Shown here piece after piece: positions 1,826-38,211 of a stretch of DNA of 44,609 bases. Made by a program: the position numbers and the translations under genes. The notes beneath the pieces are model-generated. The model had not been told where the DNA came from and ran no database searches. It saw only the letters and a list, made by a program, of their open reading frames with translations. Source of the stretch: Balneolales bacterium (GTDB lineage Bacteria > Bacteroidota > Rhodothermia > Balneolales > Cyclonatronaceae). Every line of letters starts with the position of its first letter. Position 1 is the first letter of the stretch. The stretch is from positions 1-44,609 of the forward strand of contig JAIULZ010000016.1 of assembly GCA_022565805.1 (NCBI GenBank). The letters run 5' to 3'.

Positions 1826-2818
1826 ATGCCCTCTTATTTCAAAAAAGTATTATTGCTTTTCACCTTTACCCTATTTTTTACCGAAATATTAAGCGCACAG
1901 CTCACCATTTATTCAGGCAGAAATCGTGCGCTTGTCGAACCTATTGTTACCCGGTTCGAGCAAGAGACGGGTATAAATGTTCGTATACGCTATGGCGGAA
2001 CCACACAGCTCGCTGTTGCAATAATTGAGGAAGGCCGAAGAAGTCCGGCAGATCTTTTTTGGTCTCAGGATGCTGGCGCACTCGGGGCACTTCAAAATGC
2101 TGCCATGCTTAGAAGCTTGCCCGACGAAATTATTGCAAAAACCCCTCCACAATTGAGAAACAGCGAATCTACATGGATTGCTACTAGCGGAAGGGCGAGA
2201 GTTCTTGCATACCAGCATAATAAGATAAGTGAAGCTGAGTTACCGTCTTCCGTATTTGATCTCACTGATGCCCGATTTCGTGGCAGGGTAGGTTGGTCGC
2301 CCGCTAATGCATCGTTCCAATCTTTTGTTACAGCAATGAGAAGCGTTAAAGGAGACGATGCAACGCGTTTATGGCTTAGAGAAATGGTTCAAAACGGAGC
2401 GGTTGCCTATAATAACAATAACTCTATTCTACAGGCTATAGAAGCCGGTGAAGTTGATTTTGGATTAACCAACCACTATTACATTGATCGCGCAACAGCT
2501 TCTAATCCGGATTACCCCATTTCATCTCATTATTTTGAGGAAGGGGATCCTGGAAATTTACTTAATATTGCCGGAGTTGGAATTGTACAAAGTTCACGAA
2601 ACCAGGAAAATGCGCTTAGATTTGTTGAGTTTTTACTTAACGAGTCTTCTCAGCAGTTTTTTATGAATGATGTCTTTGAGTTTGCCTCAACTACAGGTCT
2701 GGGAGATTCGGATCGTATGCTCGAGTTTGTTCTCTCTATATCACCAGAAATAAATCTGGACAATCTGAGAGATCTGGACGGAACACTTCGCTTATTGAGA
2801 CAGGTTGGACTATTATAA
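1826..2818 (+). CDS. Ferric-iron ABC transporter, periplasmic binding protein (FbpA/FutA-like)
   Basis: A 330-residue extracytoplasmic solute-binding protein, probably for Fe(III). A signal peptide covers about residues 1-24 (positive SYFKK, hydrophobic LLLFTFTLFF, then LSA before QLTIYSGRN). The mature start, LTIYSGRN, is typical of iron-binding proteins of the FbpA/FutA type. The adjacent pair Tyr218-Tyr219 (NHYYID) matches the double-tyrosine iron ligands of that group. The next two genes encode the permease and the ATPase, and the stop codon overlaps the permease start, so all three are probably one operon. The symbol is withheld because fbp, fut, afu and idi systems cannot be told apart by sequence alone. 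Confidence 0.88.
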   Translation: MPSYFKKVLLLFTFTLFFTEILSAQLTIYSGRNRALVEPIVTRFEQETGINVRIRYGGTTQLAVAIIEEGRRSPADLFWSQDAGALGALQNAAMLRSLPDEIIAKTPPQLRNSESTWIATSGRARVLAYQHNKISEAELPSSVFDLTDARFRGRVGWSPANASFQSFVTAMRSVKGDDATRLWLREMVQNGAVAYNNNNSILQAIEAGEVDFGLTNHYYIDRATASNPDYPISSHYFEEGDPGNLLNIAGVGIVQSSRNQENALRFVEFLLNESSQQFFMNDVFEFASTTGLGDSDRMLEFVLSISPEINLDNLRDLDGTLRLLRQVGLL

Positions 2819-4397
2819 GTTGAAAACTTCCGATTATATACGAAAACTCCCACCCTGGTATTTCTTCGCTCCTGCTATTTTTGTAGGAATTGCAGTTACC
2901 CTGCCTCTCGTCTATCTGCTTGTAAGGGCATTAGACGGCAATTTGGGCCAAAGTGCCGAACTTTTATTTCGTGAAAGAAACCTTACGCTTCTGCTTAACA
3001 CCCTTAAACTTACAGCCGGAGTTCTTGTTGTTACTACTTTTCTGGGTTTCCCTTTTGCCTGGCTCACAAGCCGGACCGATATTGCCGGTAAGAGAGTAAT
3101 TACTCTCCTTGGCGTTCTGCCCTTAGCCATACCAGGCTATGTACTTGCCTATGCTTTGCTGGGCATCGGTGGCGAAAATGGTACACTCTCTCAGGTTTTT
3201 GGGCTTACTGTAGCCCGCCCAAGCGGATATTGGGGCGCACTAACAGCAATTAGCCTATACACTTTCCCTTACCTTTTTCTAAATCTGCGAACAGGTCTTA
3301 TGGGGCTGGATCCATCTACGGAGGAAGCTGCAAGATCACTTGGCCTTAGTTCGTTTCAGGTACTATACAAAGTAGTTTTACCACAGCTCAAGCCCGCTTT
3401 TTATTCTGGCGTTCTTATCATTTCTCTTTATGTAATTGGTGATTTTGGAGCTGTCTCTTTACTCCGTTACGAAACCTTAAGTTATGCCCTCTTTATTCAA
3501 TACGAATCGGCTTTCGACAGAGTTTATGCAGCATGGATTGCGCTTATTCTGCTTACGCTAACCTGCACTATATTAGTTGCTGAATATAAACTTTTAAAAG
3601 GACTCTTATTTTATAGAGCAGGCACAGGTGTTTCCCGAAAAACAAGATTTGTAGCTCTGGGACACTGGAAGTGGATAGCATATTCTTTTGTAGGTCTGGT
3701 TACTTTTTGCGCAATTATACTACCACTAATAACGATTCTATTTTGGATGGCACAGGGGGTAGACCCGCTGGTTTGGGAAATTTTAGGGCGTTCAATTACT
3801 TCATCTGTTGTCGCATCTGCACCTGCAGCTCTTTTAGCTGCTTTCTTTGCGCTGCCTTTAGCATACATTTCTGTTCGTTATCCCTCAAGGACTTCCAATA
3901 TACTTCAACGATTTGCTTATCTCGGCTATGCGACTCCTCCTTTAGCCCTCGCACTAGCCTTTATTTTTTTCAGCCTAAATATTATTCCTTTTATTTATCA
4001 GACTATCGGGTTGCTGGTATTTGCCTACTCACTGCATTTTTTAGCCGAAGCTATGGGTCCTGTAAGGAGCGCACTATACCAAACACCTCCACGCATAGAA
4101 GAGGCAGCTCAATCGCTTGGTGTTAGCAAGTTTATGGCTTTCGTTAAGACTACTTTACCACTTTTGAGGGGTGGAATTATAGCCGGGATTTCGTTTGTTT
4201 TCCTTTCTGCTATGAAAGAGCTTCCCATTACGTTTATCTTAGCTCCAATCGGTTTTGAAACACTTGCTCTAAATGTATGGAGTTTTTCGGGTGAAGCAAT
4301 GTTTGCAGAGGCCGCTCCTTTTGCCATTTCAATATTATTTTTCTCAGTAATTTTTGTATTACTTTTATTTAGCAGAGAATGGAAAAAATATGAATGA
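2805..4397 (+). CDS. Ferric-iron ABC transporter, fused permease (FbpB-like)
   Basis: A 530-residue inner-membrane permease built of two homologous halves, about 12 membrane segments in all. Each half carries the EAA loop that contacts the ATPase: EEAARSLGLSSFQVLYKVVLP in the first half (near residue 172) and EEAAQSLGVSKFMAFVKTTLP in the second. Fused permeases of this size are normal for FbpB-type iron importers. No ATG lies near the start. The frame opens with TTG at 2805, inside the end of the binding-protein gene, with a second TTG at 2820; the true start is one of these. The 3' end overlaps the ATPase start by 8 bp. Confidence 0.9.
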   Translation: MDYYKLKTSDYIRKLPPWYFFAPAIFVGIAVTLPLVYLLVRALDGNLGQSAELLFRERNLTLLLNTLKLTAGVLVVTTFLGFPFAWLTSRTDIAGKRVITLLGVLPLAIPGYVLAYALLGIGGENGTLSQVFGLTVARPSGYWGALTAISLYTFPYLFLNLRTGLMGLDPSTEEAARSLGLSSFQVLYKVVLPQLKPAFYSGVLIISLYVIGDFGAVSLLRYETLSYALFIQYESAFDRVYAAWIALILLTLTCTILVAEYKLLKGLLFYRAGTGVSRKTRFVALGHWKWIAYSFVGLVTFCAIILPLITILFWMAQGVDPLVWEILGRSITSSVVASAPAALLAAFFALPLAYISVRYPSRTSNILQRFAYLGYATPPLALALAFIFFSLNIIPFIYQTIGLLVFAYSLHFLAEAMGPVRSALYQTPPRIEEAAQSLGVSKFMAFVKTTLPLLRGGIIAGISFVFLSAMKELPITFILAPIGFETLALNVWSFSGEAMFAEAAPFAISILFFSVIFVLLLFSREWKKYE

Positions 4398-5439
4398 ACT
4401 ATTAACCGCAACCAATTTAACCAAACGCTTTAAGCCGGAAGAGCATCCGGTTGTAGATAAGGTATGCTTTGGGGTAAAAGAGCAGGAAATCTTTGCAATT
4501 CTGGGTCCAAGCGGTTGTGGTAAAACGACCACTTTACGCATTATTGCCGGTTTCGAACGAACCGATGATGGCTCTATACAGCTTAACAGCAAAACACTAG
4601 AATGCCCCTACACTCATATTCCTCCGGAAAAACGTGGCATTGGGTTTGTATTTCAGGATTACGCATTGTTCCCACATTTAAGCGTACTCGAAAATGTTAA
4701 ATTCGGGATACGAAATGCTGGTGGTTCAGAAAGAGAGTTCCGGGCCCTCAAAATGCTGGATCTTATAGGCATGAAAAGTTTAAGAAGCCGTAAACCGCAC
4801 GAATTATCCGGGGGACAGCAGCAGCGGGTTGCGCTGGCAAGAGCTCTTGCGCCCAAGCCTTCTCTTTTGCTTATGGATGAACCTTTTTCGAATCTGGATG
4901 CTGTACTTAGAAACAGCACCCGAAATGAAGTTCGCAAGATTTTGAAGGATGCAAAAATGAGCGCTATTCTTGTTACACACGATCAGGAGGAGGCCTTGTC
5001 TGTTGCAGATCGCATAGGAGTTATGAATAATGGGAAAATTGTTCAGATTGGAACTCCCGAAGATGTTTATTACAGACCCAAAACACGGTTTGTTGCCCAG
5101 TTTCTTGGCAAAACTAATTTCTTTGCAGCTCAGGCAACCGGACTCGAAGCACGCTCCGAAATTGGCTACCTCATGCTCGATAAGCCAGCAAGAGGAGACG
5201 TTATGATTTCCATAAGACCCGAACATCTTACTTTGGAAAGAGCCACACCTGCTAATTGCAGCGGCACCTGTGGAATTATTTCGTCTAAGGAATTTAAAGG
5301 CCATGATATTACATACCACATAAAACTTCCTACTGGCGAGTGTATCGTTCATACAGATAACAGAATGCCGTTTGGTATAGGCGAGAATGTAGTGGTTAGA
5401 CCCCTAGAACCTGCCGTAGTACTTAAGCAGGACAGCTAG
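4390..5439 (+). CDS. Ferric-iron ABC transporter, ATPase (FbpC-like)
   Basis: A 349-residue ABC ATPase energising the importer. Walker A is GPSGCGKT at residues 39-46, the Q-loop FQDYALFPHL, the signature LSGGQQQRVALARA, Walker B LLLMDEP, and the H-loop LVTHDQEEA. The C-terminal ~110 residues form a TOBE-type regulatory domain (SIRPEHLTLE is its typical entry). I chose ATG 4390, which overlaps the permease stop by 8 bp; an open frame back to a TTG at 4354 adds 12 residues that resemble permease sequence in another frame rather than an ATPase N terminus. Substrate is inferred from the binding protein. Confidence 0.92.
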   Translation: MNELLTATNLTKRFKPEEHPVVDKVCFGVKEQEIFAILGPSGCGKTTTLRIIAGFERTDDGSIQLNSKTLECPYTHIPPEKRGIGFVFQDYALFPHLSVLENVKFGIRNAGGSEREFRALKMLDLIGMKSLRSRKPHELSGGQQQRVALARALAPKPSLLLMDEPFSNLDAVLRNSTRNEVRKILKDAKMSAILVTHDQEEALSVADRIGVMNNGKIVQIGTPEDVYYRPKTRFVAQFLGKTNFFAAQATGLEARSEIGYLMLDKPARGDVMISIRPEHLTLERATPANCSGTCGIISSKEFKGHDITYHIKLPTGECIVHTDNRMPFGIGENVVVRPLEPAVVLKQDS

Positions 5440-29423: not shown

Positions 29424-30731
29424 CTATCCTACGTGTTCAAGTTTAGCTGCCATTTCCTCGGCCGTATCATCGGCTGCAGCTACGGTGGCGTCGAGATCTT
29501 CCTGCGATAAAGCATTTGAAAGAAAAAGGCTTTCATACGCAGAAGGCGGCAGATAGACTCCCCTTTTTAGCAAACCGTGGAAAAATGTACCAAAGAGTTC
29601 CGTATTTGTTCGGGCGCAGCTTTCAAAATTGTTTACTTCATTTTCACAAAAGAAAATACCGAGCATAGAGCCTACCCGGTTCATGGTATGAGGAATGGTG
29701 TGATGCTTAAACACCCGATGCAGCCACTCTTCGAGATGAGCAGTTTTAAGCTCGAGTTCTTTGTAAACAGATGGATTTTCGTTAAGATAACCAAGCAGTG
29801 CCAGACCGGCGTTCATGGCCAGCGGATTTCCCGATAGCGTACCAGCCTGATATACAGGACCTACCGGCGAAACCATATCCATAATTTCCTGCTTTCCACC
29901 ATAAGCGCCAACCGGAAGTCCGGCTCCGATAATTTTACCGAAGGTAACGAGATCGGCCTGCACGCCATAGAGTTCCTGCGCACCACCCCGGGCAACCCGG
30001 AAACCGCACATCACTTCATCAAAAATAAGCACGATGTTGTGCTTGTCGCACAGCTGTCTTAATCCGGCCAGAAAGCCATCATCCGGTGGAATGCAACCCA
30101 TATTCCCGGCAATTGGCTCTAAAATGATGGCCGCTATTTCTCCTTCGTTTTCTTCTGCGAGTCTGCGCACATCTTGAAGATCATTGAAGTTGGCAGTTAG
30201 CGTATCTTGTGCGGTACCTTTGGTAACACCTGGGCTGCTTGGAGTGCCGAAGGTCATGGCTCCGCTTCCAGCCTTAATGAGAAAGGAATCGCCGTGACCG
30301 TGATAATTTCCCTCGAATTTTATGATTTTATCTTTACCGGTATAACCACGGGCAACGCGAATGGCGCTCATGCATGCTTCTGTACCCGAATTAACCATCC
30401 GGATTTTTTCCAGACCCGGTACCATTTCAATAATTAGCTCTGCAAGCTCAATTTCTGCTTCGGTAGGCGCTCCAAAAGAGGTAGATTTCTCGGCTGCTTT
30501 TTTAACGGCTTCAATTACAGGTTCAAAAGCGTGCCCCATTATCATCGGGCCCCACGAGCCAACGTAATCTATGTACTTATTACCGTCTGCGTCGTATAAA
30601 TACGCACCCTTTGCTTTTTCAAAAAATATGGGGGTTCCACCTACGGCCTTAAACGCCCTTACCGGGCTATTGACCCCACCGGGAATAAATTTCTGGGCTC
30701 TGGCAAAAAGTTCACTGCTTTTATTAAACAT
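29424..30731 (-). CDS. hemL: Glutamate-1-semialdehyde 2,1-aminomutase
   Basis: A 435-residue PLP enzyme that makes 5-aminolevulinate from glutamate 1-semialdehyde, the second step of the C5 pathway. It starts [19 protein letters not shown]. The PLP lysine is Lys266 in [13 protein letters not shown], and [16 protein letters not shown] and FDEVMCGFR are further cofactor-site blocks. The length is standard. It follows hemB by 51 bp and precedes the MFS gene by 12 bp; its partner GluTR is encoded by hemA at 35788-37041. Confidence 0.98.
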
Positions 30732-30782: not shown

Positions 30783-31796
30783 TTAGCTGCCTGAAATAAT
30801 TCTGGCTGCATCTTTAGCAAAATAGGTCGCTATTAAGTCTGCACCGGCTCTTTTAAATGCGGTTAAGGTTTCAATTATTGCGGTATTCTCGTCTAAAAAA
30901 CCTTTCTCTGCCGCGGCTTTTATCATGGCATATTCTCCTGATACGTGATAAACAGATACCGGAACACTTACCGAATCCCGAACAGCGCGAACTACGTCTA
31001 AATAGGGTAAACCGGGCTTCACCATTATAATATCTGCGCCCTCCTGCTCATCCTGCTGACCTTCCCGGGTAGCTTCGCGAACGTTTGCCGGGTTCATTTG
31101 GTAGGTTTTCTTATCTCCAAAACCGGGGGCAGAATCCAACGCATCACGAAACGGACCATAAAAGCATGAGGCATATTTTGCGCTGTATGCCATTATCCCC
31201 ACGTGATAAAAACTCTCCACCTCCAGCGCTTTGCGAATCGCTCCAATACGGCCGTCCATCATATCGGATGGCGCAACCATATCGGCACCGGCTTTGGCGT
31301 GGGATACCGCCATTTTCTCGAGTACAGATACGGTTTCGTCATTTAGTATTTGTCCATCTTCCACAATACCATCGTGGCCATAGCTCGAATAGGGATCAAG
31401 CGCGATATCTGTCATCACATACATTTCGGGCAAGGCATTTTTGAGCTCTCTAATGGCGCGCTGCATTAAACCGTCGGGATTTATGGCCTCTGTTCCCTCG
31501 TTATCTTTAAGCTCGTCTTCTGCCTTAACAAAAAGAAGTACAGAACGAATGCCCGCTTCATATAACTCCTTCGCCTCACGAATCATCAGGTCGATACTCA
31601 TTCTCGCATAGCCAGGCATAGATGGTATTGGCTCATGCGTACTGTTTCCCCCGATTACAAAAAGAGGGGCAATAAACATGGATGGATGCAGGCGGTTTTC
31701 GGTAACCATTTCGCGGATTCCCTCCGTAACGCGTAGCCTTCTGCCTCTTACGTTTGGGAAAGAACCCGGTATGGCCGAAGATAGTCGAATACTCAT
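30783..31796 (-). CDS. hemB: Delta-aminolevulinic acid dehydratase (porphobilinogen synthase)
   Basis: A 337-residue enzyme that condenses two 5-aminolevulinates into porphobilinogen. The two active-site lysines are in AYSAKYASCFYGPFRDA and IIMVKPGLPYLD. At the metal site the sequence reads DIALDPYSSYGHDG rather than the cysteine-rich zinc site, which places it in the Mg-dependent, zinc-independent group. It heads the hemB-hemL part of the cluster. A 314-bp gap separates it from hemF, so it probably has its own promoter; a dyad at 31847-31862 lies 50 bp upstream of the start. Confidence 0.98.
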   Translation of the reverse strand: MSIRLSSAIPGSFPNVRGRRLRVTEGIREMVTENRLHPSMFIAPLFVIGGNSTHEPIPSMPGYARMSIDLMIREAKELYEAGIRSVLLFVKAEDELKDNEGTEAINPDGLMQRAIRELKNALPEMYVMTDIALDPYSSYGHDGIVEDGQILNDETVSVLEKMAVSHAKAGADMVAPSDMMDGRIGAIRKALEVESFYHVGIMAYSAKYASCFYGPFRDALDSAPGFGDKKTYQMNPANVREATREGQQDEQEGADIIMVKPGLPYLDVVRAVRDSVSVPVSVYHVSGEYAMIKAAAEKGFLDENTAIIETLTAFKRAGADLIATYFAKDAARIISGS

Positions 31797-32110: not shown

Positions 32111-33031
32111 TTAAACCCAGTTTACGGGGTTTTGCAATACCTTTACCAAGTTTTCTTCTCTGCTACCGGGCTTGGGATGGAAATCATAGTCCCATCGAGT
32201 AACCGGGGGCAAACTCATTAGTATAGATTCGATTCGCCCGTTGGTTTTTAAACCAAACAGAGTTCCTCTGTCGTGCACCAGGTTAAACTCTACATATCGA
32301 CCTCTTCTAATTTCCTGCCAGTATTTTTGATCTTTCGTGAAGGAAAGATTTTGCCTTTTATCTACTATTGGCAAATAGGCAGAGATAAATGAATTCCCGC
32401 AATTTTGGACCATTTCAAACCAATTCTCCAGCGTTTTGCCATCGTTTTCTTCTCTCAGATAATCAAAGAAAATGCCTCCAATTCCCCTTGCTTCGTTGCG
32501 ATGAGCATTATGAAAATAGCGATCGCAGGCCTCTTTATATTCAGGATAAAGCCGGCGGTCGGTTGTATCCAGCGCATCTTTGTGAACTCTGTGAAAATGT
32601 CTTGCGTCTTCTTCAAATAAGTAATACGGCGTAAGGTCTGCGCCTCCCCCAAACCAGCTGTCTGTAGCGGATTCGCCCGGCTCATCGTAGAGTTCGAACA
32701 TTCTGTAATTGGCGTGTACCGTTGGAACCATCGGACTATATGGATGAAGAACCAGCGAAATACCCGCGGCAAAGAAATGTCCCTGATCAACCTTAAAACG
32801 CTGCTTGATTAAATCCGGAAGCTCGCCATGCACCACCGAGCAGTTCACCCCGCCTTTTTCGAACACTTTACCCTTTTCAATTACACGAGTTCGCCCACCA
32901 CCGCCGCCTTCACGCTCCCAGAGATCTTCACGGAACTCAGACTTACCATCCATTCGGGATACAGCTTCACATATTTCATCCTGAAGGGCGTAGATAAACC
33001 GGCAAAACCGATCTTTTAAAAGTTCTGACAT
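32111..33031 (-). CDS. hemF: Coproporphyrinogen III oxidase, oxygen-dependent
   Basis: A 306-residue HemF that converts coproporphyrinogen III to protoporphyrinogen IX with O2. Family blocks are GGGGRTRVIEKGKVFEKGGVN in part, MVPTVHANYRMFEL, WFGGGADLTPYYLFEEDARHFH in part, RNEARGIGGIFFDYL and GRYVEFNLVHDRGTLFGL. The length is typical. It lies 15 bp after hemE, the last gene of the hemH-hemF run. Choice of HemF implies haem synthesis with oxygen present. Confidence 0.98.
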   Translation of the reverse strand: MSELLKDRFCRFIYALQDEICEAVSRMDGKSEFREDLWEREGGGGGRTRVIEKGKVFEKGGVNCSVVHGELPDLIKQRFKVDQGHFFAAGISLVLHPYSPMVPTVHANYRMFELYDEPGESATDSWFGGGADLTPYYLFEEDARHFHRVHKDALDTTDRRLYPEYKEACDRYFHNAHRNEARGIGGIFFDYLREENDGKTLENWFEMVQNCGNSFISAYLPIVDKRQNLSFTKDQKYWQEIRRGRYVEFNLVHDRGTLFGLKTNGRIESILMSLPPVTRWDYDFHPKPGSREENLVKVLQNPVNWV

Positions 33032-33046
33032 AAAAGTTTTAATAGT

Positions 33047-34102
33047 TTATTTATTTTCTGAGGGCTCCCAGAATTTTACCGCATCAAAGAATGCCCGCGC
33101 ATGATCTACCGGCACAAATGGTAAAATACCGTGACCCAAATTGGCAATATACTTTTTTGATCCAAACCGATCTATCATCCGATGTACACTTTTGGTGATT
33201 ACATCGGGTGATGCAAGCAGCTTCGACGGATCAAAATTTCCCTGTAGCGTAATATCGTTGCGCGTGGCCACTCTTGCATATTCCGGCGTAATGCACCAGT
33301 CTACCCCCAATGCGGCGGCTTTTGTGCGATAACTTATCGCTTCGAGCGCGTACCAGCTGCCTTTTGGATACAGAATAACCGGCGCTTCGGTTATCGCGTT
33401 ACAGATCTCTATCAAGTAGGGAAACGCTATTTCGTTGAAATCTTCGGGCGAGAGCAGACCGCTCCAAGAGTCAAATACCTGCACGATTTGCGCACCGGCC
33501 GCAATCTGAGCCTTAAGATATGCGATTGTTGTCTGCGTTATCACCGATAGTATATGCTTGCTTGCTTCGGGATGCTGCCAGTAAAAGGCCTTTGCTCTTG
33601 AAAAGTCTTTCGATCCTTTCCCTTCAATCAGGTAGCAAAACAGCGTCCACGGAGCGCCGGCAAAGCCGATCAAAGCAGCTTCGCCCTGCAGCGCGTGTCG
33701 TGTTAGGGTAAGAGCTTCCATCACATAGTGAAGCCGGTCGTGTACATCGGGAACGCGCAAAGCAAATGCCTGTTCGGGCGTAGAAACAGGGTTCGGAATA
33801 CGCGGACCTTCACCCGGGTTTAGCGTAACCTCAATTCCTATTGCCTGCAGTACCACAAGAATATCGGAGAAAATAATGGCCGCATCCGGGCTGAATCTCC
33901 TTATGGGCTGCATCGTAATTTCACAGGCAAGATCAGGCGTTTCTACCCGCTCAAAAAATGTATACTTGCCCCGAAGCTCCATGTACTCGGGTAAATAGCG
34001 CCCGGCCTGCCTCATCATCCAAACCGGTGGTCTTGGCACATCTTCACCCTTAAGGGCTTTAAGCATCAGGTCATTTTTCAGGATGGGGAAATTTGTACTC
34101 AT
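33047..34102 (-). CDS. hemE: Uroporphyrinogen decarboxylase
   Basis: A 351-residue HemE that removes four carboxyl groups from uroporphyrinogen III. The N-terminal signature PPVWMMRQAGRYLPEY contains the substrate-binding Arg residues. Others are FSDILVVLQAIGIEV, GFAGAPWTLFCYLIEG and FDSWSGLLSPEDF, and GHGILPFVP lies near the C terminus. The length is standard. It lies between hemD and hemF, with 21- and 15-bp spacers. Confidence 0.98.
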   Translation of the reverse strand: MSTNFPILKNDLMLKALKGEDVPRPPVWMMRQAGRYLPEYMELRGKYTFFERVETPDLACEITMQPIRRFSPDAAIIFSDILVVLQAIGIEVTLNPGEGPRIPNPVSTPEQAFALRVPDVHDRLHYVMEALTLTRHALQGEAALIGFAGAPWTLFCYLIEGKGSKDFSRAKAFYWQHPEASKHILSVITQTTIAYLKAQIAAGAQIVQVFDSWSGLLSPEDFNEIAFPYLIEICNAITEAPVILYPKGSWYALEAISYRTKAAALGVDWCITPEYARVATRNDITLQGNFDPSKLLASPDVITKSVHRMIDRFGSKKYIANLGHGILPFVPVDHARAFFDAVKFWEPSENK

Positions 34103-34123: not shown

Positions 34124-34855
34124 TTAATGATAACCGGCTATACTTTCTAATAATTCTATTACACCCTCCAAAGATGCTTGTTCGCAAATCAACGGGTTTT
34201 CGTAGCCCGCATCGCGCAGGGCTGAAGCCGTTGTTTCGCCTATGGCGCAAATTTTGGCGCTTTCCGGTATTTTCATTCCGGAATAATTGAGTGCCGATAC
34301 AGCGCTCGGGCTAAAAAAAACAGCGGCTGCAAATTGCTCTCGGGGTATGGTGGCTTTTTTATTTATGATGGTTTCATAAGCCGTAACGGGTACATAGATA
34401 TGGCCATAGCTTCGGAGAATTTCACCCGTTTCATTTCTTTTAATTGATGAGCAAAGATGCAATATACGGGCTGGAGTCTTAAGCTTTTCTGCGATGAGCT
34501 CAGCAACGGATGCTCCATTTTCCGCTTTTCCGGGCCATTCGCTCATTATTTTATTTTCTTCAAGACGTAATGCCGTTTGGTGGCCAACTGAAAATACAGG
34601 AATATTTTCGAAAAGATTGGGCTGCTTTACTTTGCAGGCAAGATAGGCGTCTACAGCGTTTTTACTTGTAAAGAGAAGTGCTTGCGGAGCTTCGGCCTTA
34701 CTAAGCTCCTGAAGCAGATCTCCGGCTAACCGTATTGTAACTTCAATTAGCGGATGTACTATAGGTTCGACACCCCGGCTACGACAATACGAAATCTCAT
34801 CATCCTTTAGCTGCTTTGTAAACCAAACCGAAATAGTACCTTTTTCCCGGAGCAC
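34124..34855 (-). CDS. hemD: Uroporphyrinogen-III synthase
   Basis: A 243-residue HemD that closes and inverts ring D of hydroxymethylbilane to give uroporphyrinogen III. The family is poorly conserved. The visible marks are LLFTSKNAVDAYL in the first domain, FSVGHQTALRLEE, and AAVFFSPSAVSALN with AKICAIGETTASALRDAGY in the second. It starts 6 bp after hemC, the usual neighbour, which makes the call firm. Confidence 0.93.
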   Translation of the reverse strand: MLREKGTISVWFTKQLKDDEISYCRSRGVEPIVHPLIEVTIRLAGDLLQELSKAEAPQALLFTSKNAVDAYLACKVKQPNLFENIPVFSVGHQTALRLEENKIMSEWPGKAENGASVAELIAEKLKTPARILHLCSSIKRNETGEILRSYGHIYVPVTAYETIINKKATIPREQFAAAVFFSPSAVSALNYSGMKIPESAKICAIGETTASALRDAGYENPLICEQASLEGVIELLESIAGYH

Positions 34856-34861
34856 AAGCTT

Positions 34862-35782
34862 TTACTGCTCCCTTCTTATTTCTGAAAGAATGTCCATTAC
34901 AGCTTCTCTTTCCATCATAGCCTCTGCGGCGCGGTCTCCAAGAGCTGCGCTCTGCTCTACGGGAATAAACATTTTAATCTCTTCTCTAATGCTTCCATCC
35001 AAAGAGGTCATCAAGCCGTGAAAATGTATTGAATCGCCTTCTATGCGCGCGAAAGCACCAAGCGGTGCCGAACAGCCTCCTTCAAGAACCTGCAGGAAAC
35101 GCCGCTCGGTTTTAGTGCAAAGAGCAGTTTCTGAGTGATGCAAAAGTTGAAGCACCCGTATAATTGCTTTGTCGGCAGAGCGGCACATTACGGCAACGGC
35201 TCCCTGCGCAGGAGCTGGCACCATCCAGTCTAAATAAGCGCTTATTTCTCCCTCGAGCCCGACTCTTTTAAGCCCGGCAGCGGCAAAAATAGCGCCGTGC
35301 CAGTTGTTTTCACGAATTTTGCGAAGCCTTGTTTGCACATTGCCTCTTATATCGGTGAGGCGATGACCGGGAAAACGATTAAGCCACTGTCCACCACGTC
35401 TGTGGCTGCTTGTAGCGATTACGCAGTCTTCGCCCTCAGGGATTCCGCTACCTGATTTAGCTACAAAAACATCACGGGGATCTTCACGCTCCAGAATCGA
35501 GCAAACCTCAAGACCTTCGGGCAGCCTGGTAGGAATATCTTTAAAAGAATGGACGGCAATATCTATTTCACCAGCAAGAAGGGCATCATCCAGCGCTTTT
35601 GTGAAAACACCTTTGCCTCCCATTAGCGGAAGCGGCGTATCCAGAACACGGTCGCCCTCTGTTTTTATGAACACAAGCTCGGTTATAAAGCCGTTGCTCT
35701 TTAGTTTAGCGGCTACGTGTTCTGCCTGCCAGGTTGCGAGTACGCTGTCTCTCGTACCTATTTTAATTATTTTAAATGCCAT
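34862..35782 (-). CDS. hemC: Porphobilinogen deaminase (hydroxymethylbilane synthase)
   Basis: A 306-residue HemC that links four porphobilinogens. It starts IKIGTRDSVLATWQAEHV. The dipyrromethane cofactor is carried by Cys237 in LEGGCSAPLGAFA. The catalytic Asp region is AVHSFKDIPT, with ATSSHRRGGQWL after it. The gap to hemA is only 5 bp and to hemD 6 bp, so all three are one operon. Confidence 0.98.
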   Translation of the reverse strand: MAFKIIKIGTRDSVLATWQAEHVAAKLKSNGFITELVFIKTEGDRVLDTPLPLMGGKGVFTKALDDALLAGEIDIAVHSFKDIPTRLPEGLEVCSILEREDPRDVFVAKSGSGIPEGEDCVIATSSHRRGGQWLNRFPGHRLTDIRGNVQTRLRKIRENNWHGAIFAAAGLKRVGLEGEISAYLDWMVPAPAQGAVAVMCRSADKAIIRVLQLLHHSETALCTKTERRFLQVLEGGCSAPLGAFARIEGDSIHFHGLMTSLDGSIREEIKMFIPVEQSAALGDRAAEAMMEREAVMDILSEIRREQ

Positions 35783-35787
35783 TGCAG

Positions 35788-37041
35788 CTATTCACCGCTA
35801 ATCTTGTACATCTCCTGAAGTATTCGGGTAACTTCCTCGGTATTGTCGCGGTTTTCTCTAAGGTGCTCGATTGAGTGCGCGATAATTTTATTTACAATGC
35901 GCTGAGTAAGATGATCTACATCGGCAATTGTATCTTCATTTATTTTATGCCTGAAACGCGCTAGTTCTTGCTTGCGTATAGAGTCGAATTTATTGTTCAG
36001 CGCCTTAATTGTAGGCACTACTTTAAGCTCTTTCATCCAGGTACAGAATGCGGTAAACTCTTCATCCAGAATATTTTCGACCAGCGGGATATTAGCTTTA
36101 CGTTCACGGAAAGTCTCATCCAGAGTATCTGAAAGCATGTCCATATTGATAAGATGAACAAAATCAAGATCAGAAACTTCAGAAGAAATATTTCTGGGAA
36201 CCGACAGATCAATCATTAGCTTAGGCGAACCATCGGGATCACAAAGATCCATGTGGCCGGTGTTAATAACAGCATGAAGCGCGCCGGTTGCCACGATAAC
36301 AAGATCTGCTTTCGCAATTTCGATATCGATATTCTTCATTAGGGCTACATTCACTGCGAAGCGACTGCCAAGCCTTTCTGCTTTACCAAAATTGCGGTTA
36401 ATAATGGTAACTTTACTTGCACCCGAGGAAACCAGATTTTTACATGTTACTTTACCGATCTTACCTGCACCTACCAGTAAAATATTCTTACCACTAAGAC
36501 TACCAAAATACTGTTTTGCCATTTGCACAGCAGCATATGCTGTAGAGGCTGCACCAACCCCGAGGGTAGTTTCATTTCTGGAGCGTTTATGCGCTCTTGA
36601 AACACTTTGCATAAGACGATGCAGCACGGCATCGCACATGTTTGCATCAATAGATGCGCGGTATGCTTCTTTAACCTGCTTAATTATTTGCAGGTCGCCC
36701 AGAATCTGAGCTTCTAGCCCGACCGCAACTCTGTAAACATGGCGGATAGCATGCTCGCCGTGCTTAATGAAACCAAATTCCTGAAACTCAGCCAATGAGC
36801 CAGAGGCGTGTTTAACAAATAAAATAGAAAGCAGTTCTGCATCGGATGTGGTTGCAAATAGCTCAGTACGGTTACACGTAGATATAACCATCGCTCCTTT
36901 AATACCATGGCCACGAACATCTTCAAGCAAAGATCGCTGCTGACCAGCCACCATACTAAAGCGTTCGCGCGTGGCTAAATCCGCCAGATGATGGTTAATG
37001 CCTATTACCGTAAATTTTTCAAGAAGAATACTATTATCCAT
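35788..37041 (-). CDS. hemA: Glutamyl-tRNA reductase
   Basis: A 417-residue GluTR, the first committed step of C5 tetrapyrrole synthesis, reducing Glu-tRNA to glutamate 1-semialdehyde with NADPH. Catalytic Cys56 is in VISTCNRTELFA. GINHHLADLATRERFS precedes it, and the NADPH-binding loop is ILLVGAGKIGKVTCKNL. The C-terminal dimerisation helix follows. It lies 18 bp after hemH. This enzyme is usually the control point of the pathway, often through haem-dependent proteolysis. Confidence 0.98.
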   Translation of the reverse strand: MDNSILLEKFTVIGINHHLADLATRERFSMVAGQQRSLLEDVRGHGIKGAMVISTCNRTELFATTSDAELLSILFVKHASGSLAEFQEFGFIKHGEHAIRHVYRVAVGLEAQILGDLQIIKQVKEAYRASIDANMCDAVLHRLMQSVSRAHKRSRNETTLGVGAASTAYAAVQMAKQYFGSLSGKNILLVGAGKIGKVTCKNLVSSGASKVTIINRNFGKAERLGSRFAVNVALMKNIDIEIAKADLVIVATGALHAVINTGHMDLCDPDGSPKLMIDLSVPRNISSEVSDLDFVHLINMDMLSDTLDETFRERKANIPLVENILDEEFTAFCTWMKELKVVPTIKALNNKFDSIRKQELARFRHKINEDTIADVDHLTQRIVNKIIAHSIEHLRENRDNTEEVTRILQEMYKISGE

Positions 37042-37059
37042 GATACAATTTAAATTCGC

Positions 37060-38211
37060 TTAAGAAGCAACCATTTGCTTTGATGCAGGCTTCTCTTCAG
37101 CGAGCACATTTTCATTTTCCTGACGTTCTTCGAATACGTGAGATACGATTTTTCTTGTTTCATCGGCAAGAGCTTTCATAAATAGCGGGTGATCATTAAT
37201 TCCCGGCATTACCTCGAGCTGATCGATATGAAGGCCTTCTTCTTCGATAGCTTCCCTAAGCTCTACATCCAGCTCCATCGAAGTTTCAATATGATCTGTT
37301 ACGAATGCTACTGGAATCATTACAAGATGCTTGATGCCATATTTAATCAGGCGAAATACCAGTTCTTCCGTATTTGGCTGTGTCCATTTTTGAGGGCCAA
37401 CCCTGGATTGGTACCCAAGCCAATACTGACGATCCCGATTCCTCAGGGTCATAACCGCTTCTACAGTCGCCTCTATTTGTTTTGTATATGGATCGCCACT
37501 CCTAACCTCGGCAAGCGGTGTACCGTGCGCTGTAAACAGAAAATGAACTTTATCCCGAACTTCCGGCGAAAATCTTTCTAAAGCTTCATTAATTCTGTCG
37601 TTCATGGCGTGCAGATAATCCGGGTTCAGGTAATAATCTTTTACGATATATTCCTGCCATTCCGTTTTTTTGCCTTCTTTAAGCTGGTCTTTTCGCACGT
37701 TTTCCCATTCCCTGAAGCTGCTTCCACTTGTTGTCCATGAAAACTGCGGGTACAACGGCATAAGAACAACATGATCCATACCATCTTCGCGTATTTCATC
37801 CATAATCTGTTCTGTAAAGGGCAACCAATATCGCATTGCTGTATATACCTTTACATTATGCTCAGGATATTCTGATTTAAAATACTTTTCCAGCGACCTT
37901 CTTTGAGACTCTGTTAAGCCGTTGATAGGTGAGCAGCAGCTTGAAATCACCTTATTTTGTCTGTTAAAACAGTACTTGCTGCCTGTGCAACCTTTAGTGC
38001 AATAATTTATTTCCTGATAATTTTCTACAATTTTCTTTGCCCGGATACCGGAAATAAGTTTAGCAAGCTGATTTTGCCAAAAACCACCTCCCAATCGAAT
38101 GATATCCTCATCGCGGAATAAATTATACAGAAACGTTTTAATGTTATCTTCTGATGTTGGTCCGCCCAAATTCAGTAAAACTATACCAATATTTTTTTTG
38201 GTCTGGCTCAT
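37060..38211 (-). CDS. hemH: Ferrochelatase with internal Cys-rich insertion
   Basis: A 383-residue HemH that inserts Fe(II) into protoporphyrin IX. It starts GIVLLNLGGPTSEDNI; active-site His229 (LFTAHGTPLAEV) and Glu309 (DHIETSMEL) are present. The segment that usually reads roughly Y-x2-IGGGSP is expanded here and has five cysteines at 71, 75, 81, 92 and 93 before SPINGLTE. This fits the described class of ferrochelatases whose [2Fe-2S] cluster is held by four cysteines in an internal stretch of about 20 residues. The C-terminal tail has no cysteines. It is the first gene of the hemHACDEF run, with a good candidate promoter just upstream. Confidence 0.97.
   Translation of the reverse strand: MSQTKKNIGIVLLNLGGPTSEDNIKTFLYNLFRDEDIIRLGGGFWQNQLAKLISGIRAKKIVENYQEINYCTKGCTGSKYCFNRQNKVISSCCSPINGLTESQRRSLEKYFKSEYPEHNVKVYTAMRYWLPFTEQIMDEIREDGMDHVVLMPLYPQFSWTTSGSSFREWENVRKDQLKEGKKTEWQEYIVKDYYLNPDYLHAMNDRINEALERFSPEVRDKVHFLFTAHGTPLAEVRSGDPYTKQIEATVEAVMTLRNRDRQYWLGYQSRVGPQKWTQPNTEELVFRLIKYGIKHLVMIPVAFVTDHIETSMELDVELREAIEEEGLHIDQLEVMPGINDHPLFMKALADETRKIVSHVFEERQENENVLAEEKPASKQMVAS

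Follow-up and report, generated by a model that had tools for sequence, protein, structure and literature searches.

Ferrochelatases have been described with a [2Fe-2S] cluster motif in two placements, one on a C-terminal tail and the other within an internal insertion (Weerth et al. 2021, PMC8529089). A haem gene locus in the window analysed here (the whole 44,609-nucleotide stretch of contig JAIULZ010000016.1) raises the question of whether a further placement exists. Its hemH product carries at least four cysteines in a short internal segment (five within residues 71–93), as do enzymes of the internal-insertion class, and an earlier note made from the sequence had matched it to that class. 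The source organism is a member of the order Balneolales (NCBI phylum Balneolota), and the nearest named records are those of Balneolia and Balneolaceae bacteria, Fodinibius, and Rhodohalobacter. A literature search on Balneolales ferrochelatase found nothing.

The gene encodes a genuine ferrochelatase, as had been claimed. Its reading frame runs from ATG to stop on the minus strand, with the plus strand full of stops, and the translation scores far above threshold against Pfam PF00762 (E 2.4e-92, 309.8 bits, cut-off 27) and NCBIfam TIGR00109 (275.4 bits, cut-off 124.6). His229 and Glu309, which the earlier note described as intact, align with human His263 and Glu343 and are invariant across Balneolales HemH. 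An AF2 model has a mean pLDDT of 91, falling to 75–87 in the insert blocks, and adopts the chelatase fold, superimposing on human ferrochelatase over 326 residues at 1.9 Å (Z 41.6). The gene is the first of a same-strand haem run that continues with hemA, hemC, hemD, hemE, hemF, hemB, and a probable hemL (Table 1), and hemA follows it in 49 of 49 Balneolales loci with enough flank. Because the same genome (99% complete) encodes a protoporphyrinogen oxidase (TIGR00562, 294.5 bits, over the cut-off) and lacks the coproheme decarboxylase PF06778 in a search whose controls were positive, the substrate of this HemH should be protoporphyrin IX. Elsewhere in the window, a P-loop NTPase of Mrp/NBP35 type with an iron-sulfur assembly domain (PF10609, PF01883; 25204–26301, minus strand) lies about 11 kb from hemH, and a binding-protein-dependent ABC transporter (solute-binding protein, permease, and ATPase) occupies 1826–5439 on the plus strand.

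Table 1 Features of the hemH gene and the adjoining haem genes, in window coordinates.
Feature	Position	Strand	Basis
hemH, protoporphyrin ferrochelatase, 383 aa	37060..38211	-	PF00762 and TIGR00109 above cut-off; AF2 model on human fold
Tyr65 codon (human Tyr123, propionate 6)	38017..38019	-	Alignment; role from PMC9133952
Cys-rich insert, residues 69-93, C-x3-C-x5-C-x10-CC	37933..38007	-	Alignment with insert-free enzymes and human
Ser94 codon (human Ser130, propionate 6, mouth closing)	37930..37932	-	Alignment; role from PMC9133952
His229 codon, catalytic (human His263)	37525..37527	-	Motif TAHGTP, alignment
Glu309 codon (human Glu343)	37285..37287	-	Motif DHIET, alignment
hemA, glutamyl-tRNA reductase	35788..37041	-	TIGR01035
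hemC	34862..35782	-	TIGR00212
hemD	34124..34855	-	PF02602
hemE	33047..34102	-	TIGR01464
hemF, oxygen-dependent coproporphyrinogen oxidase	32111..33031	-	PF01218, NF003727
hemB	30783..31796	-	PF00490, NF006762
probable hemL, class-III aminotransferase	29424..30731	-	PF00202 and operon position; name inferred

Alignment agrees with the earlier placing of the cysteines. The insert makes the protein about 22 residues longer than insert-free enzymes, and stands where the human enzyme reads I-G-G-G-S-P and insert-free bacterial enzymes read I-G-x-S-P. All five cysteines of the protein (71, 75, 81, 92, and 93) fall within it. It lies between Ile68 and Ser94, in the loop that joins helices 3 and 4 in the human alignment, and the model has a helix at 43–68, the insert, and then a helix at 95–114. 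In human ferrochelatase Tyr123 and Ser130 hydrogen-bond porphyrin propionate 6, residues 129–131 belong to the helix 3–helix 4 loop, and Ser130 may act in closing the active-site mouth (review, PMC9133952). The equivalents Tyr65 and Ser94 are both invariant in a 72-sequence alignment, and Cys93 immediately precedes Ser94.

The cysteines are strikingly constant within the order. Each of the five is invariant in all 65 full-length Balneolales HemH sequences, a set that reaches down to ~56% identity to the window protein, while invariance holds at 109 of 320 core positions and at 4 of the 19 other insert positions. The difference is significant against the core (p ~0.005) and against the rest of the insert (p ~0.003; Fisher test, with neither columns nor sequences independent), and eight additional Balneolales enzymes read directly have the same five cysteines. 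By this alignment, conservation of the five cysteines is above chance. The earlier note had left the ligand set open on account of a fifth cysteine, and conservation supports this, the fifth being as conserved as the other four.

From these sequence patterns we favour the reading that the loop insert binds an iron-sulfur cluster, probably of the [2Fe-2S] type and ligated by four of the five cysteines, and we hold it with moderate confidence. Ferrochelatases of related lineages hold [2Fe-2S] by comparable cysteine groups at two other sites (PMC8529089). The neighbours in the core tree, Rhodothermia enzymes with a C-terminal motif, carry a cysteine motif of cluster type, and the five cysteines stay fixed while most other residues of the insert drift. 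Against a cluster stand the lower confidence of the model in this region, a count of five cysteines where four are needed, and the spacing of the insert, which matched nothing among Pfam and PDB profiles, zinc-ribbon families included.

The same invariance would be expected if the cysteines bound zinc or another single metal and merely stabilised a longer loop, since structural zinc sites, too, typically have four or five cysteines close together within a short loop. We consider this unlikely, given that no zinc-ribbon family matches and that related cysteine groups in ferrochelatases hold [2Fe-2S] (PMC8529089). A metal-free thiol/disulfide switch, in which redox state opens or closes the propionate loop, would suit the adjacent CC pair with further cysteines close by, all beside Ser94, and a count of five instead of four. 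Five invariant cysteines are nonetheless more than a switch needs, and such groups in this family hold clusters, so that we regard a switch as improbable.

If a cluster is present, it could be that of the described internal-insertion class. Enzymes of that class, among them M. xanthus HemH and 43 of 46 Bacteroidetes sequences, carry insertions of 22–34 residues; both members of a CC pair are reported as ligands, and all motif-holding insertion enzymes fall in one clade (PMC8529089). The window insert resembles it in being internal and Cys-rich, in its similar length (~22 residues), in its CC pair, and in having about five conserved cysteines. The earlier note had proposed aligning the protein with this class and with the human enzyme, and the alignment sets the insert apart. 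In the Bacteroidota sequences that we read, all Cys-rich internal insertions other than the Balneolales type follow the catalytic HGxP, at the site that matches residue 241. Their cysteines lie ~12 residues past the catalytic histidine, with the pattern C-x5-CC-x9-C-x4-C or close variants, and the betaproteobacterium Caballeronia sp. SBC1 has its insertion at the same place. The window protein reads HGTPLAEVRSGDPYTKQ (GDPYTKQ) at this site, without an insertion, and is 26–31% identical to the class; none of the sequences read carries both insertions. Five site-241 enzymes (L145, L146, L149, L150, and L151) lack the CC pair and have four cysteines only, in the pattern C-x4-C-x10-C-x4-C, which suggests from sequence that those four are the ligands in the site-241 class.

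A maximum-likelihood tree built from the cores of 59 sequences (307 columns), from which the insert and tails had been taken out, separates the site-241 enzymes and the Balneolales-type enzymes into two clades, each with a bootstrap of 100. Insertion site and clade thus rule out plain membership of the site-241 class. The text of PMC8529089 gives no residue numbers for the insertion site, and we infer from its clade, phyla, and motif that the M. xanthus enzyme is of the site-241 kind. Since that source puts all motif-bearing insertion enzymes in one clade, we give little credence to the window protein being of the M. xanthus type. What survives of the earlier assignment is a conserved Cys-rich insert and a plausible cluster; the fit to the described class does not, as both site and clade differ.

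The Balneolales-type enzymes are instead placed among insert-free enzymes and Rhodothermia enzymes with the C-terminal motif. Because of this grouping, the core tree shows, as far as sequence can, that the Balneolales insert arose independently. Outside the order, the closest cores (up to 48% identity) are those of insert-free enzymes of the Bacteroidota group (e.g., L082 and L086), which have a short I-G-x-S-P loop with no cysteine insert. The C-terminal-motif Rhodothermia enzymes are nearer in the core tree than the site-241 class, with about 40–44% identity to the window protein. In the C-terminal-motif class (human, Caulobacter) the ligands come from three cysteines of the C-terminal tail and an internal cysteine, whereas the window protein has no cysteine after residue 93. 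The window protein is therefore probably a third placement of the cluster motif in ferrochelatase. The published survey set aside 18 sequences with the motif elsewhere (PMC8529089), and some of these could match the Balneolales kind.

Other features of the Rhodothermia enzymes came to light in these comparisons. Seven with the C-terminal motif (L107, L110, L122, L126, L128, L134, and L135) show a pair of neighbouring cysteines at the positions matching 243/244, near the position of the site-241 insertion in other enzymes. Two second copies (L124 and L127) have Arg or Gln in the catalytic histidine column of the alignment but retain both the CC pair at 243/244 and the cysteines near the C-terminus; judged by sequence, they are possibly non-catalytic paralogues.

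A regulatory Cys-Pro motif that binds haem or porphyrin in feedback, prompted by Cys71-Pro72 in most Balneolales, is very improbable and was dropped, as the window protein and its genus have Cys71-Thr72 and the other cysteines are equally conserved.

The insert appears confined to the order. Within the class its profile matched 80 of 245 genomes, every one a member of Balneolales and drawn from five families, and in 394 genomes sampled across the phylum (GTDB sense) it matched Balneolales only, apart from one chance hit. That hit, in G108 (E 1.3e-4), fell in a 48-residue frame that does not share the register of a longer reading frame, and we take it as chance. Outside Bacteroidota and Balneolota, the distribution rests on plasmids and on close whole-protein relatives in genome contigs: the close relatives in contigs are all Balneolales-like, and plasmids yielded neither a close relative nor a DNA-level match to a site-241 enzyme.

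Not every member of the order has the window kind. Genera g8, g12, g17, and g23 (L111–L119 and L239–L244) carry the site-241 kind instead, a kind present in some genera of one Balneolales family. Because these enzymes nest inside the general Bacteroidota site-241 clade, gene replacement by transfer is likely. In two such genomes the ferrochelatase gene lies near hemA-hemC, not directly before hemA. In the phylum sample, 34 Balneolales genomes have a ferrochelatase, and in every case it is a Cys-insert type, 19 of the window kind and 15 of the site-241 kind; none of the 34, each read from sequence, has a Cys-free enzyme. Such like-for-like replacement suggests that the cysteine group has a function under selection. 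Eight Balneolales genomes, 98–99% complete (G022, G030, G034, G049, G051, G053, G059, and G220), gave no match to the ferrochelatase profile and are either haem auxotrophs or encode an unrecognised enzyme.

The helix 3–helix 4 loop has thus gained about 22 residues, with five invariant cysteines among them, between the residues that bind propionate 6. We envisage that four of the five would hold a [2Fe-2S] cluster, and that the cluster may pin, stiffen, or tune the propionate-gripping loop, which helps the active-site mouth to close. Cys-to-Ser variants of bacterial ferrochelatases, from enzymes of the two known placements, lose the cluster and keep activity (PMC8529089). Because these stripped enzymes stay active, a modulating role appears more likely than an essential one, with a precedent that covers the two known placements only, and a gating role is not what that precedent leads one to expect. 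A cluster in this loop could also make haem synthesis sensitive to iron-sulfur status or oxidative stress, as the earlier note had supposed.

The purpose of the ferrochelatase [2Fe-2S] cluster has been open since 1994 (PMC8529089). We advance only tentatively the broader proposal that an iron-sulfur cluster was gained yet again at a third place, the propionate 6 loop, where its state tunes the grip on substrate, giving three arrangements within one class. If true, one bacterial class met the same cluster need by three different arrangements. The whole order Balneolales would be overlooked or wrongly classed in motif surveys that consider the two known sites alone. A third placement, evolved independently and beside a residue assigned to substrate binding, would point to selection for the cluster as such, and enzymes of the window type offer a direct test of the cluster's effect on porphyrin binding.
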